The notes under the pieces: model-generated | Database searches by the model: none | Seen by the model: only the letters and a program-made list of their open reading frames with translations | Told to the model about the DNA's origin: nothing | Part shown: in pieces, positions 9,966 to 31,347 of the stretch | How the letters are laid out: every line of letters begins with the position of its first letter | How positions within the stretch are numbered: position 1 is the first letter of the stretch | Virus record (IMG/VR): IMGVR_UViG_3300033981_000358 | Coordinates: 1-31,347 of that record | Direction: 5' to 3' (one strand) | Length of the DNA stretch: 31,347 nucleotides | Source: a virus | Position numbers and translations under genes: made by a program

Positions 9966-10309
9966 GCCTGAATATGGATGCGCTGGCAACCCCGATATTT
10001 GGGGAGCCAGATAGCCTCCGTGACTTTCTTTTTGAAAATGGCATACAGCATCAAGTCTTTTGGGAAAGGTTGACTGACGCTGGGTTTTATGTGCCACGGT
10101 ATCCAATTATTGATGCTGACCCGCAAGACTTGGATGACTGGCTACTCATCCATCAACAAGAACACCAACGCTACGCCACTATTCTTAATCTCAATGACCC
10201 CTTTAATCTGCTAGACTTGGACTTCAACCAAGAGGATGACTTTTACGATTGGGTAAATAGTCATTTGTTAATTCATGAGCAGATAGCACGTACACTGGGG
10301 GTGACATGA
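9962..10309 (+). CDS. Hypothetical helical protein with His-rich duplication (115 aa)
   Basis: The 115-residue acidic product has two similar helical units: DLDDWLLIHQQEHQRYATIL and, nearer the C-terminus, FYDWVNSHLLIHEQIARTLG. Both carry an aspartate, a Trp and spaced His residues, suggesting an internal duplication that could bind metal or pack as a bundle. It is coupled by ATGA overlaps both to the membrane-protein gene before and to the acyl carrier protein gene after. I recall similar small proteins in phages but no function. Confidence 0.6.
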   Translation: MSLNMDALATPIFGEPDSLRDFLFENGIQHQVFWERLTDAGFYVPRYPIIDADPQDLDDWLLIHQQEHQRYATILNLNDPFNLLDLDFNQEDDFYDWVNSHLLIHEQIARTLGVT

Positions 10310-10599
10310 TTTCTGATGAGGATTTTTACCGTTTATTTAATGCGGCTGCGGTTGCTGCCAAGCCTTATGGAAAACCAGCAATTCCAGCTACTAGCATGGA
10401 AGATCGGTTTGAGAACATTGAGATAGATAGTCTGGATGGCTTGATTATGGGCATGTATCTTTGCGATGCTTTTGCCGTGTCTGAGGCCGAAGGAAAAGAC
10501 ATGAAGCCTGAAACGGTAGGCGACATGCGAGATTTTCTAGTAAAACACGCAAGAGTTAGTGAAATTGATATAGAAAAAGCCATTGAGGTGATGAAATGA
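10306..10599 (+). CDS. Acyl carrier protein-like
   Basis: The 97-residue acidic helical product carries an ACP motif, residues 36-46 ENIEIDSLDGL. Ser42 is the expected site for the 4'-phosphopantetheine arm that holds acyl chains as thioesters. A predicted helix II follows (GLIMGMYLCDAF), and ETVGDMRDFLVKH (69-81) matches the final helix of ACPs (TVgDlvdfl). It is slightly longer than bacterial AcpP because of an N-terminal extension and a longer helix II-III loop. It overlaps a ketoacyl synthase gene by ATGA, which supports the identity strongly. No phosphopantetheinyl transferase is in the window, so host activation is assumed. Confidence 0.75.
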   Translation: MISDEDFYRLFNAAAVAAKPYGKPAIPATSMEDRFENIEIDSLDGLIMGMYLCDAFAVSEAEGKDMKPETVGDMRDFLVKHARVSEIDIEKAIEVMK

Positions 10600-11720
10600 G
10601 TCTGTTTCTTACCTTTGGTCATACTGTATCTACAACTCAAACGACCTTGATGGAAGACATTGTGCATCCACAACGGACGCACTTCATTCCTGAAAGCTAT
10701 CAAGGCACCAAGCATGGCTACAAATACGCACCGCATAACCTTGCCAACATGGTCTTGGCACCCGCCACGTTGGAGTGGTTGCGACAAAACCCGGCACTGG
10801 GCAAAACTGCATTTATCTTGGCTTCTGGCAACAGTCACTTTGCTGGCATCAATCCAAAAGACAATCAAACGAATACGCAACTGCACTACATCTACAAGTT
10901 TTTGCCTTTTTCCTTAACGCAAGTAATGGCTGGCAGACTAGCAAACCAGATATGTGAGCCAGATTACATTGCTACCGACGCTACCGCTTGTGCGTCCAGC
11001 TTAAAAACGCTTATGGACTGCATCATGCTGGAAGCCTTTGGCTATACCCGTTTTATTATCCTAACCGTTGAGGATGCCGTCTCTAACTCCGTATTAGAGT
11101 TCTTTGGCGATTCTGGAGCCAGCCTGACACTGAAGGAAGAAGGCGACGGAAACGTGCTGCCCAGTGCGTTTGATCGTAAAAATGGGGGGTTTTACGTCGG
11201 GCAAGGCGCTGCTTTTGCCGTCTTGCAATCTGAAGGCGAGGTGAACTTCTACAACCTAAAGCCTAAAGCTAGACTGGTCAGCGCCTACCATGCCGCCGAA
11301 AAGCATACGAATGCCATTGGTCAGCGAGAAGACGGTCAAGGCTACATTAAAGCCATTGAAGGTGCCATGCTGTACGGCGATGTCCATGCTGACGATATTT
11401 CCATAGTAAAAACACATGGCACTGGCACCGAGTCAAACAATGAGTCAGAGGCAATGGCGCTTTACAAGACATTAAATAACTTTATAGCAACATCATTTAA
11501 ACCAAAAATAGGTCACACAATGGGCGCTTCGGGCTTGCTTGAAACGCTACTTTTGCTTGACAATCTAGTTTATGGTGTTGTACCTGCTATTCCTAACCGC
11601 ACGGAAAAGGACGATGTTTTTCTGTCGCAGGATTGTGAGGTACCCGATGGTTTAATAATGAGTCTCGCGGCAGGTATGGGCAATGTTTATACCGCTGCGA
11701 TCTTTGATCCCGTGAGGTAA
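10596..11720 (+). CDS. Beta-ketoacyl-ACP synthase (FabF/KAS-II-like, divergent)
   Basis: The 374-residue thiolase-fold product has all condensing residues: Cys132 in DATACASSL, His274 in KTHGTGTESNN, and Lys302/His307 in KPKIGHTMGASG. Spacings (Cys to first His 142, Lys to second His 5) agree with FabF (140 and 5). These enzymes join an acyl chain on the Cys with malonyl-ACP, releasing CO2. It is about 40 residues shorter than FabF. The C-terminal GFGGTN loop, which carries the gating Phe in FabF, is replaced by AAGMGNVY. It overlaps the ACP gene, and a gene of possible acyltransferase fold follows two bases later. The enzyme class is clear; substrate and product are unknown. Confidence 0.9.
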   Translation: MSLFLTFGHTVSTTQTTLMEDIVHPQRTHFIPESYQGTKHGYKYAPHNLANMVLAPATLEWLRQNPALGKTAFILASGNSHFAGINPKDNQTNTQLHYIYKFLPFSLTQVMAGRLANQICEPDYIATDATACASSLKTLMDCIMLEAFGYTRFIILTVEDAVSNSVLEFFGDSGASLTLKEEGDGNVLPSAFDRKNGGFYVGQGAAFAVLQSEGEVNFYNLKPKARLVSAYHAAEKHTNAIGQREDGQGYIKAIEGAMLYGDVHADDISIVKTHGTGTESNNESEAMALYKTLNNFIATSFKPKIGHTMGASGLLETLLLLDNLVYGVVPAIPNRTEKDDVFLSQDCEVPDGLIMSLAAGMGNVYTAAIFDPVR

Positions 11721-24105: not shown

Positions 24106-24465
24106 CTAACTATCCTCGGGAGAGGATTCATCCTGCAACTGATGGGGGTCTAGTTCATTACCAAGAAGCGTCAACAGATCGGAGAAGCGCAACAAGGCCA
24201 GCGATTTGCCGCCATCCTCGCGCATGACAACCAGCGGTATTTGTCCTGCTTCACAGGCTTTCTCAGCCTGTTCCACAAAATCATACACGGCTATCTTGCG
24301 TCTGCGTTTGCATTCAATAAGATATTTGCCCAAGATCAGATCGCCTTCGTCTTTAACCTGATACTGCTTTAGATTGCGGCGAATGCGAATGCCTAGCTTG
24401 TCAAAAATCTCATTGGCTACTTCACGCTCGTAGCTTGCGCCCCTTTGTCTGTTGAGCTTGCTCAT
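24106..24465 (-). CDS. PD-(D/E)XK nuclease, Holliday junction resolvase-like
   Basis: The 119-residue product has RGASYEREVANEIFDKLG, then GDLILGKYLIECKRRRK with Asp42, Glu51 and Lys53, and a Gln66 helix. This is the compact PD-(D/E)XK arrangement of Hjc-like resolvases and some small phage nucleases. It probably resolves or trims branched DNA in recombination. The start overlaps the stop of the upstream gene as TGATG. Genes for exonuclease and annealing protein upstream in the operon complete a recombination set. Confidence 0.7.
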   Translation of the reverse strand: MSKLNRQRGASYEREVANEIFDKLGIRIRRNLKQYQVKDEGDLILGKYLIECKRRRKIAVYDFVEQAEKACEAGQIPLVVMREDGGKSLALLRFSDLLTLLGNELDPHQLQDESSPEDS

Positions 24466-24621: not shown

Positions 24622-24888
24622 TTAAAAGGGGATTTCGTCATCGTCCTTACGCTTGGATGGCGTAGGATTCATGTTGCCGCCGACGGGTGGTTGCCAGTTG
24701 TCTTCTTTTAAACTGATCAGTACGCCGCCAGTCGTATCCTTAGTCCATGCGGAGATTTTAAGCGTTTCTCCAATGACATAGTTTCTGCTTACTTTAATTT
24801 CGCCTACCCAATCAGGATGCGCGTTAGTTTTCTTTTTACGGTTTGTGTAAAGAACGCCGGTACCGGGGTTTCTCTCTTTATATTCCAT
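24622..24888 (-). CDS. Small SSB-like / OB-type protein with SSB tail
   Basis: The 88-residue product ends in DDDEIPF, the acidic C-terminal tail that SSB proteins use to recruit DNA-repair and replication partners. The rest has strands around WVGEIKVSRNYVIGETLKIS and AWTKDTTGGVLISLKEDNW, compatible with a short OB-like barrel, smaller than bacterial SSB (about 110 residues before the linker). It probably binds single-stranded DNA made by the exonuclease encoded in the same operon. I am not sure of the fold. Confidence 0.5.
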   Translation of the reverse strand: MEYKERNPGTGVLYTNRKKKTNAHPDWVGEIKVSRNYVIGETLKISAWTKDTTGGVLISLKEDNWQPPVGGNMNPTPSKRKDDDEIPF

Positions 24889-25075
24889 CTTTAATTCCTT
24901 TCGTTAATGAATATTTTGCAAATTCTTTATTTCCGAGGCGCACTGATTGAGTCACGATGGTGTGACCGTCTTTCCTGAGTTCTTCAATGCGTGCTGCCAG
25001 CCGTAACACGCCGTAGAGTCTCAGACTATCTAATGCGGTAATCTCATTACCTTGCTGCAAGTGGCTTAGAATCAT
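24878..25075 (-). CDS. Helix-turn-helix protein (65 aa)
   Basis: The 65-residue product has the pattern NEITALDSLRLYGVLRLAAR, IEELRKDGHTIVTQSV and a terminal KEFAKYSLTKG. This is the winged-HTH style of small phage proteins of the HTH_39 type, where an 'ITxxxAL...G..RLAxRIxELR..G' helix pair is followed by a wing. It may be a regulator or a DNA-binding partner in recombination. No good ribosome site is seen before ATG; it lies 30 bases after the previous stop and overlaps the next start by 11 bases. Confidence 0.65.
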   Translation of the reverse strand: MILSHLQQGNEITALDSLRLYGVLRLAARIEELRKDGHTIVTQSVRLGNKEFAKYSLTKGIKDGI

Positions 25076-25104: not shown

Positions 25105-25950
25105 TTAACCCTTTTTTATTTCTTCATCCAATCCGTTCTTTGCATCACGGATACCGTTGACCCACACCTCAAACAAGGCTTCATGCTCTTGAGCAATCTT
25201 GTCCAAGACAACTTTATTGGCTTGTTCTAGCGCGTTGATCTTGGCAATCTTCTCCGCAGCGTTGAGCTTTACGTTTTCATAAAGGGTTGTCACTACGTCA
25301 AGATACTTAGCAACAAACTCATCGTCGTTCGGGTAATAGCTATGGGGTTCCTTCATGCCGGGGTACATCATAGGTACGCCAGTTTTAGGTGTTGGCGGTG
25401 GTTCCATGATCTGCACTGGCGCTACTTCGCCGGGTGTAACTAACGGGATTTTGCGTGCATCTGCAATCGTTTCAACTTCAGTTTCGTCAAGCATTCCGAG
25501 TCCACAATGTGCAAGCACCGACCGCCGAATTGCTTTCGTAGTTGCTTTAAGGATTGCGTTAGCGAGTTTTTCTCCGGTAAGACTCCCAACATCCACTGCA
25601 CCTTGATTTTCTGATACTCGTCCATCAGCGCCGGTACATCTAACCGAGACAAGGTAAATTCCATCAACACGTTCTCGATGCGTAATCTGAGTGGATAGCT
25701 TGTGAATGGCACATAGTTGCTGCGTTGCGCCAGCATTCGCATATAAGACATGTTTTCCATTAAGCGTCAGAAGATCAAAAGGTTTAGCGGCAGGATCAAG
25801 ACCTACTTGTTTGCAGCGGTACAGGTAATATTGTTTCTTCTGGTCTTCATTTAAACCAGACAGATCACCGCGCAGAACAATGGATGATTGGATAGCCGGA
25901 TCAAGCGCCAAGACAGAGGCTTCACCGGATAGATTGACTACGTTACTCAT
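25105..25950 (-). CDS. RecT/Red-beta-like annealing protein (putative)
   Basis: The 281-residue product follows GAGGTC before ATG. Residues about 30-165 carry a pattern like the core of phage annealing proteins: YLYRCKQVGLDPAAKPFDLL, VLYANAGATQQLCAIHKLST, IYLVSVRCTGADGR, and AILKATTKAIRRSVLAHCG with GLGMLDETEVETI. The C-terminal 100 residues are Pro-rich, then helical. Such proteins anneal single strands produced by a partner exonuclease. A YqaJ exonuclease gene lies directly upstream in the operon, the usual pairing. Similarity is by pattern only. Confidence 0.6.
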   Translation of the reverse strand: MSNVVNLSGEASVLALDPAIQSSIVLRGDLSGLNEDQKKQYYLYRCKQVGLDPAAKPFDLLTLNGKHVLYANAGATQQLCAIHKLSTQITHRERVDGIYLVSVRCTGADGRVSENQGAVDVGSLTGEKLANAILKATTKAIRRSVLAHCGLGMLDETEVETIADARKIPLVTPGEVAPVQIMEPPPTPKTGVPMMYPGMKEPHSYYPNDDEFVAKYLDVVTTLYENVKLNAAEKIAKINALEQANKVVLDKIAQEHEALFEVWVNGIRDAKNGLDEEIKKG

Positions 25951-25957
25951 ATTGACC

Positions 25958-26851
25958 TCACTTCAGTAAGAAGCGGCGTGAGCCGGGTTGTTCGACAATG
26001 AACTGCTTATGAATATCAGGCATGGCTTTCTTGAACAGTTCCTCAGAAAACTTCTGGCTAGGTTTAGCGTTCTTCCAAGTAGCCAGCACACGCCCGTCAT
26101 AGGTAGATAGCTGCCCTGACTCCATCATGTAGCCTTTGATCAGGTTTGCCAGCTTTGCTTCCTCCTTCTCTAGCGAACCGATTTGCGTCTTCAACAGGCC
26201 AAGGCGCTCACAGGCTTGCTCCAGTTCTCCGGTAGCTAACAGGCTGCTGCCATTGTCCTGCTGATAAACGATCTTGGCGGCATCCCCCATCGTTTCGGGA
26301 TCAAAGCGTTGTGCCTTGATGCGTCCCCAAAACTGTGCCATTTCTTTGGCATGTAAATCCCACTGTTCTTCGGAGAATGTCAGCGGGTAGCCGCAGATTT
26401 CCTGCCCGCCAAAGCAGACAATCAGAATCACATTGGGGATACGATGGACTAAGGATTCATGTAGGCACTGGACAAAGTAGCCGGTATCGACAAAGGTAGA
26501 TTCGTCGTCGCCGTACTTCTTGCGCTGGTGGATGCCAAGGTTCTTGACCTCATAGAGTATCTGCCCGTCCTCTGATATGTAATCAAAGTGGCTGGCAAGA
26601 AAGTCGTGCTGTGGGTGACGCATCATATAATCTGCGTCTTTGAAGTTAATACGCTTACGCCTTGCGTATTCGCGCATGATCGGTTCTTGCATGACAAGAC
26701 CCATCTGCACTGCTTCAATGTCGGAAAGATCGTCTAAAGGTTTTGCGCCTACCTTTTCGGCATAGACCTCACCGGCTCTGCCTTCGACAAATCGACGCGC
26801 ATCGTTAGACCATAGTGCGGTGTTCCGCACTTCGGGAGAAAAGTCACTCAT
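25958..26851 (-). CDS. YqaJ-like / lambda-exonuclease-type recombination nuclease
   Basis: The 297-residue product has a YqaJ-type active site: Glu56 in MQEPIMREY, Asp90 in ASHFDYI and Glu101-x-Lys103 in LYEVKNLG. It has the typical SNDARRFVEGRAGEVYAEK N-terminus, and a coiled-coil C-terminal part. These nucleases chew 5' ends of double-stranded DNA and hand over to an annealing protein, here encoded next in the operon. AGGGG sits before the ATG. The C-terminal coiled coil (LLKTQIGSLEKEEAKLANL) could be an interaction arm. Confidence 0.8.
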   Translation of the reverse strand: MSDFSPEVRNTALWSNDARRFVEGRAGEVYAEKVGAKPLDDLSDIEAVQMGLVMQEPIMREYARRKRINFKDADYMMRHPQHDFLASHFDYISEDGQILYEVKNLGIHQRKKYGDDESTFVDTGYFVQCLHESLVHRIPNVILIVCFGGQEICGYPLTFSEEQWDLHAKEMAQFWGRIKAQRFDPETMGDAAKIVYQQDNGSSLLATGELEQACERLGLLKTQIGSLEKEEAKLANLIKGYMMESGQLSTYDGRVLATWKNAKPSQKFSEELFKKAMPDIHKQFIVEQPGSRRFLLK

Positions 26852-27736: not shown

Positions 27737-27869
27737 TGCGTAGCCCCTCGCATGTATAGATGTGTTTGTGTACTGGACACGGATGATGGACAGGAGCAGG
27801 AGATAGCCACAACAGCAGCAGATAGAGTGCCGTAATGCCTACCATAGCCCCTAGAAACGGTTTAAGCAT
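27678..27869 (-). CDS. Possible small membrane protein (63 aa)
   Basis: A frame starting at ATG 27869, overlapping the stop of the previous gene, gives a 63-residue product with one N-terminal membrane span (FLGAMVGITALYLLLLWLS) and a Cys/His-containing polar tail. Its last 59 bases overlap the next gene in another frame, and no strong ribosome site is seen, so the true end or existence is uncertain. A signal-anchor lipoprotein-like role cannot be supported; there is no lipobox. Confidence 0.4.
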   Translation of the reverse strand: MLKPFLGAMVGITALYLLLLWLSPAPVHHPCPVHKHIYTCEGLRNETTQTQRPDHRLGERRSD

Positions 27870-28047
27870 CGAGTTCAACTAAGGATAGGCGTTGCTCTTT
27901 CAAACGCAGTACAGAGGCTTTCAAGGCCGCGACAGAGTGTCTGGCTTTGTCTAAAGCCATCTGCGCTTTGATTTCTTGGGTACGGATTTGGTCAATGAGC
28001 TTATGCTCAGACCGTGGATCGAAATGATCTTTGGAAGATAGATTCAT
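27862..28047 (-). CDS. Small coiled-coil protein (61 aa), first gene of recombination operon
   Basis: The 61-residue helical product (EHKLIDQIRTQEIKAQMALD and SVAALKASVLRLKEQRLSL) is highly charged and likely a coiled coil. GAGGG precedes ATG, inside the leader shared with other leftward genes. It is the first gene after the candidate promoter at 28097-28125. The function is unknown; a small early regulator or DNA-associated protein is possible. Confidence 0.55.
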   Translation of the reverse strand: MNLSSKDHFDPRSEHKLIDQIRTQEIKAQMALDKARHSVAALKASVLRLKEQRLSLVELDA

Positions 28048-28096: not shown

Positions 28097-28125
28097 ACAT
28101 TAGGACACATTAAAACATCTGTCAA
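28097..28125 (-). promoter_or_regulatory. Sigma70-like promoter for leftward recombination operon
   Basis: On the minus strand TTGACA (28125-28120) is followed after exactly 17 bases by TAATGT (28102-28097), keeping the key first, second and last positions of the -10 box. The first gene starts 50 bases further on. A second TTGACA on the same strand at 28146-28141 has no good -10. The DnaA-box cluster lies directly upstream, so replication initiation and this promoter may affect each other. Confidence 0.5.
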
Positions 28126-28152
28126 CCATTTATTTTATGTTGTCAAAATGCC

Positions 28153-28216
28153 TGTGGATAACTCTGTGGATAACTTTACAGTGTGGTGTGGATAAGTTGT
28201 TAATGCCTGTGGATAA
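28153..28216. other. Cluster of four perfect DnaA boxes (candidate origin)
   Basis: TGTGGATAA, the complement of the consensus DnaA box TTATCCACA, occurs at 28153-28161, 28165-28173, 28187-28195 and 28208-28216, all in the same direction. The starts are 12, 22 and 21 bases apart, near whole helical turns for the latter two. No gene is here, AT-rich DNA follows, and a recombination operon begins beside it. Host DnaA binding is a strong prediction; use as a replication origin is inference. Confidence 0.75.
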
Positions 28217-28263
28217 GTTGTTAGAGCGTGAATCCTACATATATACATATATGCCTATATCTA

Positions 28264-28311
28264 GATATGGTACCTATATCCTAGGTTTAATATAGATATA
28301 GGTACCTATAT
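28264..28311. repeat. Paired palindromes around GGTACC
   Basis: ATATAGGTACCTATAT at 28296-28311 is a perfect 16-base palindrome. A near copy centred on GGTACC at 28269-28274 is flanked by GATAT and TATATC and lacks one A. Between them is CCTAGG. Such paired palindromes in an AT-rich region beside DnaA boxes could be binding sites of a phage initiator or repressor, or part of an unwinding element. Confidence 0.45.
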
Positions 28312-28318
28312 GGATGTA

Positions 28319-28443
28319 GGTAATACAAAGGATATAGGGAGAATATGTAGGTATAACAAAGGGGTAATATAGATAAAAAATCTATTTCTCAAACATATAG
28401 GGAAGTTATCTAGGTATAACAAAGGATATAGGTATAACAAAGG
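28319..28443 (+). repeat. Iteron-like direct repeats (GGTATAACAAAGG)
   Basis: GGTATAACAAAGG occurs at 28350-28362, 28413-28425 and 28431-28443. A variant, GGTAATACAAAGG, is at 28319-28331. Three copies are followed by ATAT. They are all in one direction. The last two are 18 bases apart, so fall on nearby helical faces. Next to the DnaA boxes they look like iterons for a phage-coded origin-binding protein; a regulator binding site is the alternative. Confidence 0.55.
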
Positions 28444-28663
28444 ATATATGTGACATATAGCATCTATGAGCAGACAGGCGCGCGTTACATATGCGCGAGG
28501 ACATTTCCGATTTTTCTGCCATGCCTAAATGTCAATAGACTGAACCTGCCTACCTTGACAAACAAGCAATAAGGGCTGTGGGAATAGGGGGTCGAGGTCA
28601 ATCGAACAGAGCTGGCACCACGGCAATAGGGTTTAAAACGGTTTTAAGGTGCCTACAAGCGGC
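28444..28663. other. Non-coding stretch between iterons and terminator
   Basis: I see no credible gene here. It includes a short inverted repeat CGCGC (28479-28483) / GCGCG (28493-28497) around TTACATAT. A TTGACA (28555-28560, plus strand) lacks a -10 box. The region drops from strongly AT-rich to average composition near 28470. Confidence 0.5.
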
Positions 28664-28695
28664 GCAAAAGAAAAAGCCGATAACTCGTATCGGCT
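28664..28695 (-). terminator. Rho-independent terminator of leftward operon 2
   Basis: On the minus strand AGCCGATA pairs perfectly with TATCGGCT (28695-28688 with 28682-28675) around the loop CGAGT, and then TTTTTCTTTT follows. It is 25 bases after the stop of the 42-aa gene and closes the operon that begins with the promoter at 30745-30774. Confidence 0.85.
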
Positions 28696-29631: not shown

Positions 29632-30522
29632 TTAAGCTGCGATTGCTTCGGTGATCTCGCCATGCTCATCGGCACTGGTAGCTGTCAGGTAGTCCATAGC
29701 TTGCTGCGCTTTTGCACTTGCTGAGAGAATGAATTTCTTATCATTTCTGAGTGCTGATAGCCAATTTTCAATGTATCCCGCATGCCTTAAATCGCCGTCA
29801 ATACCGCATTTTGCACAAAGCATAGCCGCGCCTAGTTCAGCAACTAATTCTTCAAACGCATATTCTTCGCTGCCAAAACGTGCTGGAGTAATACGCTTTA
29901 GCCTTGATTCGTGGCCTGAAGCATGTACGGATTCGTGAAGCAAAGTAGCGTAGTAATTCTCACGAGAATCAAATGCTGCCATTGCGGGCATAACGATAGC
30001 ATCTGTACTTGGCCTGAAATAGGCACTGTCACCTGCATGCGTTAAACCGCCAGAGAGATTCAGACGGGAAACAATGGCATCTGCTTGCTCGCATGAATTC
30101 CAATCTACTTGTGGCGGCTCTGGCATGTCAGGCAGGTTTAGCCCTTCGCATTGCTCTACATTGAAAACGTAGTAGTGTTTGATAAAAGCATAGGCACTTG
30201 TCACTGATTCGCCCTTATCGCCGATGGTTTCTTTGCGGTGAACATTCCAATAAACAACTGGTGTGCCCTTCTGATCTGCTTTAACTGTACCGCCCAATGC
30301 TTGCGCTTGCTTAAAAGTAACGTAATGCGGTAAGGCATAAGGCTGCATACCTAGCCAAAAGTGATTGACACCGCGATAAACCGTGCCGGATGCCGGGTTA
30401 TATGGCATTCCTTCGCCGGGCATGCCCTTCAGAGTACGCCATGGTTTAACCCATGGTGTTGCGCCCTTTTCTAGTTCGGAAATAATGCGATCAGTAATTA
30501 GTTGAGCAATGTCGATTTTCAT
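29632..30522 (-). CDS. ardC: ArdC-type anti-restriction protein
   Basis: The 296-residue product has the N-terminal ArdC ssDNA-binding domain (ELEKGATPWVKPWRTLKGMP, YNPASGTVYRGVNHFWLG, FKQAQALGGTV) and a C-terminal zincin-like metallopeptidase domain with HESVH (196-200) in LLHESVHASGH and a downstream Glu in FEELVAELGAAM. ArdC proteins protect incoming DNA from restriction. It fits an early gene; it follows only a small membrane-protein gene after the promoter. AGGGG precedes ATG. Length is usual for the family. Confidence 0.85.
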   Translation of the reverse strand: MKIDIAQLITDRIISELEKGATPWVKPWRTLKGMPGEGMPYNPASGTVYRGVNHFWLGMQPYALPHYVTFKQAQALGGTVKADQKGTPVVYWNVHRKETIGDKGESVTSAYAFIKHYYVFNVEQCEGLNLPDMPEPPQVDWNSCEQADAIVSRLNLSGGLTHAGDSAYFRPSTDAIVMPAMAAFDSRENYYATLLHESVHASGHESRLKRITPARFGSEEYAFEELVAELGAAMLCAKCGIDGDLRHAGYIENWLSALRNDKKFILSASAKAQQAMDYLTATSADEHGEITEAIAA

Positions 30523-30539: not shown

Positions 30540-30701
30540 TTACTTATCGGAAATTAGCAGTTCAAAACCGCAAACGATTGAACCGATACCGAGTAAACAG
30601 AAAGCCGCCATTGGCAAAATGCTTGCATTGATAGCAGCAAAGATTAGAACTAGAACATTGCAGAAAATGCCGAATAAGATAAACAGTGCTGAATCTTTCA
30701 T
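30540..30701 (-). CDS. Small two-span membrane protein (53 aa), first gene of operon 2
   Basis: A short frame behind AAGGGGTTTACC gives a 53-residue product with two hydrophobic spans, around ALFILFGIFCNVLVLIFAAI and PMAAFCLLGIGSIVCGFELL, and short charged ends. It is the first gene after the promoter at 30745-30774, so among the earliest made. A role in excluding other phages or guarding the membrane is possible but cannot be shown. Confidence 0.6.
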   Translation of the reverse strand: MKDSALFILFGIFCNVLVLIFAAINASILPMAAFCLLGIGSIVCGFELLISDK

Positions 30702-30744
30702 GGTAAACCCCTTGTTTTAGGATAGTGCAACGATGCACGGGTTA

Positions 30745-30774
30745 ATTATAGGATAGATGTACTTATTAACTCAA
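30745..30774 (-). promoter_or_regulatory. Sigma70-like promoter of leftward operon 2, with dyad at start
   Basis: On the minus strand TTGAGT (30774-30769) is followed after 18 bases by a perfect TATAAT (30750-30745). The start should be near 30738, where GTGCA-ACGA-TGCAC (30725-30738) forms an inverted repeat, a possible operator. The first gene (ATG 30701) follows with its leader. Confidence 0.6.
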
Positions 30775-31060
30775 GGTGTATTCATATATGCCCATATATA
30801 TATTAGTCATATATAGGGGTACTTATATATGTAGGCATATATATGTATATATGAGCAATTTTATATGGGTAAACATAGATAGATTGTCAATCTGCGCGCT
30901 CTTACCAAAATGGTAATACATGCACCTATGGCATGGGGTAGGGGCATACATGCTCTATTGACAATGCAAGCATAGGGCATAGGGCATTGGCATGGCATAG
31001 GCAAGGGGTAAGCATGCAAAGGGTAAGGGCATGGGCATGTAATGCCTGCAATGCCGCTTA
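30775..31060. repeat. Non-coding AT-rich then GCAT-rich low-complexity region
   Basis: The part 30780-30880 is made of TATA-type runs with many copies of ATATAT. From about 30910 to 31060 GCAT or GGCAT recurs a dozen or more times in irregular spacing, with GGGGTA. A TTGACA on the minus strand (30890-30885) is 19 bases from TATAAA (30865-30860). No reading frame is credible, since translations are simple repeats. Confidence 0.6.
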
Positions 31061-31080
31061 AATACTTGCTTGTAGGCGAT

Positions 31081-31115
31081 TGGCGATCGGGCATGGGAAT
31101 GGCGATCGGGCATGG
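31081..31115 (+). repeat. 16-base direct repeat (TGGCGATCGGGCATGG x2)
   Basis: TGGCGATCGGGCATGG occurs at 31081-31096 and again at 31100-31115 (starts 19 apart), each with the palindrome CGATCG. It sits at the edge of the GCAT-rich stretch. Tandem sites nearly two helical turns apart suggest a protein-binding region. The remaining 230 bases to the window end show only weak frames. Confidence 0.6.
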
Positions 31116-31347
31116 TGTTGTTGGTTCGGCAATGGTCAGGCACCCCCTCGGTTTGCGCGCCCTATTTCGTTCCCCGCCCCAACGAAAAATGGATTTATGG
31201 TTTATGCTTTGCACTTAGCAGGGCGAGAGCAATACGACGGTGCACTGGATGGTTGCAGACTGCTAATGACAGCCGGGAAAGACCGGCATCAAGACGCATG
31301 AGGATTGGCTTGCTACTGGAAAGTCCGGACTAAAGGTAGTGAGATCA

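Follow-up and report, generated by a model that had tools for sequence, protein, structure and literature searches.

Origins of replication that carry DnaA boxes are known from chromosomes and from plasmids such as P1 and RK2, the latter combining 17-bp iterons with four DnaA boxes (PMC4980987). A basal unwinding system has been described in which DnaA-trios lie within 16 nt of a box (PMC8287927). In phage T5, DnaA boxes also figure in discussions of the injection stop signal, which is described as comprising repeats, inverted repeats and palindromes (PMC13250531). In the literature searched, which lay largely outside subscription journals, no description was found of a DnaA-box origin in tailed phages that lack replication genes.

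The locus considered here belongs to a freshwater bacterial virus, IMG/VR record IMGVR_UViG_3300033981_000358, of which the whole stretch analysed (31,347 nt) is referred to as the window. It resembles oriC of E. coli and B. subtilis in that tandem high-affinity boxes lie next to an AT-rich, easily melted block within intergenic DNA, but the phage has only 2-4 boxes and no dnaA or dnaN neighbours. With the iteron plasmids (RK2 oriV, P1 oriR, F) it shares DnaA boxes and an AT-rich element, and its direct repeats may be of the 17-19-bp kind; unlike in those plasmids, no Rep gene was found in the phage, and its repeats differ entirely between close lineages. The terminal-repeat region of T5-like phages, site of the injection stop signal, likewise holds DnaA boxes, repeats and palindromes in non-coding DNA, whereas T5 has its own replisome and the element described here sits between early operons. 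Early-region repeats and AT-rich DNA also recall lambda-type ori (O, P), but the phage element does not lie inside an initiator gene, none having been found, and O-like, primase and DnaB genes occur only in one box-less relative (L090). Our preferred reading, held with moderate confidence, is that the gap at 28097-28695 is best explained as a replication origin opened by host DnaA, and that the phage probably starts its own copying with host machinery. What would be new is that a tailed phage depends on a DnaA-box origin without any Rep.

Genomic setting of the array

The window begins inside the portal gene and lacks the terminase and most of the portal, which indicates that the record is a fragment. 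No GenBank phage matched it at the DNA level, and Rfam and tRNA searches of the window gave no match. The array sits in an intergenic gap of about 800 nt that separates two leftward gene sets, with the ArdC side on the right and the RecE/RecT side on the left. Family searches identified an ArdC-like antirestriction protein on the right (29632-30522, minus strand), and a motif scan placed a terminator-like hairpin with a T-run between the ArdC-side genes and the array (28675-28695, minus strand). The first early gene past the array (27862-28047) is an open reading frame for a coiled-coil-like protein of 61 aa to which family searches assigned no family. The same strand, minus, encodes a YqaJ/RecE-like exonuclease (25958-26851), a RecT-type annealing protein (25105-25950), a small protein of 65 aa (24878-25075), an SSB-like protein (24622-24888) and a PDDEXK/RusA-like resolvase (24106-24465), and a glycosyltransferase-like protein is also among the early genes. 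The exonuclease, SSB-like protein and resolvase were assigned by family searches. The presumed RecT assignment derives from relatives that match Rad52_Rad22, the family search with the window copy having given no credible match, while the 65-aa protein matches phrog_4973 and its relatives match HTH_39, a winged helix.

Upstream of ArdC lies another AT-rich block (30690-31130), second-lowest in stability in the window and without DnaA boxes, which is followed, close to the contig end, by many GGGCAT-type repeats. A search based on the RecT alignment returned one MAG-binned phage-like contig labelled Balneolaceae, which was not accepted as the host, and comparing ArdC with plasmids did not point to a host either.

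DnaA boxes, AT-rich block and repeats

Four exact DnaA boxes (TGTGGATAA, read TTATCCACA on the minus strand) occupy 28153-28161, 28165-28173, 28187-28195 and 28208-28216, with start-to-start spacings of 12, 22 and 21 nt. The initial annotation, which reported four exact boxes in one direction within 64 bp (28153-28216) and considered such a density very unlikely to arise by chance, was correct on both points as far as exact boxes are concerned. The exact cluster is beyond chance, two exact boxes within 100 nt occurring in none of 300 dinucleotide-preserving shuffles. Elsewhere in the window a single further exact box occurs, at 1843. When one mismatch is allowed the window contains eight matches against a mean of 7.1 expected, which is unremarkable.

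The AT-rich DNA said to border the boxes corresponds to 28236-28435, which at z = +5.0 is less stable than any other 200-nt duplex in the window and is a candidate DNA-unwinding element. The two GGTACC palindromes (28269-28274 and 28301-28306) and four GGTATAACAAAGG-type repeats are present at the positions claimed for them. The palindromes, recovered by an inverted-repeat search (28269-28306), lie in 12-nt inverted arms that are perfectly complementary (28269-28280/28295-28306) and 14 nt apart. The repeats, all on the plus strand, comprise a variant, GGTAATACAAAGG (28319-28331), and one exact copy (28350-28362), both read from the sequence, as well as two exact copies 18 nt apart (28413-28425 and 28431-28443) that were also recovered by a repeat search (28413-28443). 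These putative iterons are lineage-specific; the 18-nt pair recurs in near relatives only.

Conservation among relatives

IMG/VR contains many relatives of the window phage, and 41 distinct contigs covering the gap between ArdC and YqaJ were used as the conservation sample. Tandem TTATNCACA boxes, two to four in number, 10-13 nt apart and always on one strand, were retained by 30 of the 41, and three more contigs (L014, L019 and L057) carry decayed arrays. Exact boxes accounted for 67 of the 71 tandem copies, and in L138 the degenerate position 5 is occupied by A and by T. Eight positions of the box were fixed in this search, so the four position-5 variants are consistent with DnaA specificity, not proof of it. 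Judged from the sequences, conservation of the boxes in related phages, a check proposed at the outset, is strong. The flanking block is wholly different between lineages and the boxes are unchanged. In all 30 box-carrying relatives the least stable 150 nt of the gap lie on the same side of the array, 61-156 nt 5' of the first TTATCCACA; excess instability was modestly larger in box-carrying than in box-less contigs (P = 0.03, kinship ignored).

The array is not universal, as capsid relatives from Manatee Spring (MCP 86-89% identical) are without it. Boxes, decayed ones included, are also missing from L065/L066/L068 and L056/L123/L126, in which no recognised initiator occupies the gap, and this counts against the origin reading. 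Nothing was recognised in the gap of L065/L066/L068, and a sliding-clamp-like gene (DNA_pol3_beta_2) follows directly after ArdC in L056 (L056:1087-1734) and L123 (L123:4261-4896), the two contigs tested for it. A TTGGATACGGC-type motif is repeated in the gap of box-less L065 and upstream of the array in box-carrying L069.

Replication genes

That no polymerase or helicase is visible in the window held as far as tested, the window being a fragment without terminase. The window and eight relatives measuring 35.7-38.0 kb, nine records in all, yielded neither a DnaB helicase nor a DnaA homologue. For two relatives that carry a terminase, 35 of the early and packaging proteins were submitted to family scans, which revealed no polymerase, primase or Rep, the PHROGs part of the scan covering the best 25 of 32 families. 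The families represented in those proteins were ArdC, YqaJ, Rad52/RecT-like, PDDEXK, wHTH, methylase, glycosyltransferase-like, terminase and portal, and the early genes of the terminase-carrying relatives are ArdC, RecE/YqaJ, RecT, SSB and resolvase. The combination of an initiator gene and another origin, named in the initial annotation as a refutation of its proposal, was not found in box-carrying relatives.

One contig nested in the box-carrying clade, L090, has no boxes and encodes in the array slot (L090:3012-5317) an O-like initiator, a CHC2 primase zinc finger and a DnaB-like helicase. In YqaJ this contig differs hardly at all from L018, which has boxes. The module belongs to another phage group, where tandem boxes were present in none of 79 other loci, and the junction includes about 1 kb matching none of the compared references. 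These features are suggestive of a replication-module swap in the array slot and would favour the origin reading, although L090, as a single contig, may be a chimeric assembly. A broader proposal, which we put forward tentatively and consider somewhat doubtful, is that a widespread tailed-phage group without any initiation protein carries a portable oriC-like cassette (2-4 tandem boxes and an AT-rich block) that is evolutionarily interchangeable with initiator/primase/helicase modules in the same slot.

DnaA-box arrays in other phages

A strict triple-box pattern recovered at least 120 stretches from IMG/VR. The matches listed fell into 60 DNA-level groups, and the array neighbours in them are phage genes. 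Among the same matches the least stable block lies within 250 nt of the array in 22 of the 38 groups with enough flank, against about a sixth expected. Of 50 array-bearing groups among the matches listed, 11 encode DnaB and five a family-A polymerase, on which basis the general rule that an array implies the lack of an own replisome was rejected. Contamination with host oriC was likewise rejected as the source of the IMG/VR arrays, a DnaA-like gene scoring above the cut-off in one of the 50 groups and the neighbours being those of phages.

A three-box query with a loose threshold matched 532 GenBank phage records, including T5-like, T7-like and schizoT4 phages. Since these phages have their own replisomes, boxes are not enough by themselves to identify an origin. 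The description of a DnaA-box strategy as uncommon for lytic phages is doubtful with regard to the boxes, arrays being common in phage records. Unannotated stretches with arrays were observed in a schizoT4 Vibrio phage and near Autographiviridae record ends (L366:4001-4109, L367:19-198 and L365:22-135).

The proposed host-DnaA origin and its alternatives

The conserved boxes, their fixed unstable neighbour and the lack of a detectable initiator or helicase together make an origin opened by host DnaA the best explanation of the gap. We infer that DnaA binds this locus, that the DNA melts, that helicase is loaded there and that the locus acts as an origin. Host DnaA would bind the tandem boxes at 28153-28216 and form an oligomer, the neighbouring AT-rich block at 28236-28435 would then melt, and DnaA would recruit the host helicase, with host primase and polymerase copying the phage genome. 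From the early products, RecE/RecT, SSB and resolvase of the phage would then generate the concatemers to be packaged.

The initial proposal that host DnaA opens an origin here is supported by the box conservation, the melting-prone block on a constant side and the lack of an initiator, but the GC-skew switch predicted at the boxes was not borne out. At fourfold sites the skew is -0.15 in ArdC and -0.15 in RecT, with no switch at the array; as a test, GC skew has little power when a phage genome is short. DnaA-trios on the canonical side, which was assumed from the geometry of E. coli R1, were found in eight of 30 relatives compared with 38% in shuffles, and are thus not above chance. The 13-mer side of E. 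coli oriC is located 5' of the TGTGGATAA of box R1, the sequence having been verified in 5,200 genomes; in the phage the AT-rich block flanks the boxes on the other side, which also counts against an origin. In skew, trios and side the phage element differs from oriC.

DnaA is also a known transcription factor, and the boxes could be a regulatory site at which it acts as a switch for the RecE/RecT early-operon promoter, coupling the operon to host cell state, with the origin elsewhere. A promoter-like site leading into the early operon was read from the sequence past the array (28097-28125, minus strand), consisting of TTGACA (28120-28125), 17 nt and TAATGT (28097-28102); a generic consensus promoter scan did not report it. 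TTGACA or TTGACT follows the array in 28 of the 30 box-carrying relatives, and about 12, 27, 37-38 or 47-48 nt separate the last box from the -35, most of these distances being about one helical turn apart. However, the distance from box to -35 varies, the promoter-like site also occurs in box-less L065, and regulation leaves the constant AT-rich block and the absence of another initiation system unexplained. We consider this reading unlikely.

The boxes might instead hold DnaA and so restrain host replication, or form a T5-like site at which injection stops. Arrays in T5-like and T7-like phages lie in or near terminal repeats or record ends; these phages have their own replisomes. The T5 stop signal has been described with DnaA boxes (PMC13250531). 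Two to four boxes per genome would nevertheless make a weak sponge, T5 and T7 differ from the group to which the window belongs in possessing a replication apparatus, and the assemblies of G002 and G008 look circular. Neither function appears at all likely to us. The constant unstable block favours an origin over both the regulatory and the decoy role, because a promoter or decoy has no obvious need of such a block.

That the gap is an iteron-type origin, opened chiefly by an unrecognised phage protein that binds the 17-18-nt repeats with the help of DnaA, as in RK2, P1 and F, is improbable: AGTAACCGTATA recurs at 17-nt steps in 4-7 copies in several relative lineages (the window has its 18-nt pair), RK2 offers a precedent in its 17-bp iterons and four boxes (PMC4980987) and small winged-helix proteins are encoded, but family scans gave no Rep-like gene, lineages with wholly different repeats show by eye almost the same helix region in the 65-aa protein, and the unannotated proteins in the early region of the window do not exceed about 113 aa.

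If host DnaA does open an origin in this gap, an abundant freshwater phage group would hand replication initiation wholly to its host, phage growth would depend on the amount of DnaA in the host and on the state of the cell, and minimal DnaA origins could be studied in a simple natural setting. It also becomes testable whether the arrays of many unrelated phages are an origin, a switch, a decoy or a genome-entry signal.

Additional features of the late region

The late region of the window contains a beta-ketoacyl-synthase-like gene (10596-11720; Ketoacyl-synt_C, 5.6e-14). It is preceded by a gene for a small protein (10306-10599) that had no Pfam match and by eye resembles an acyl carrier protein.
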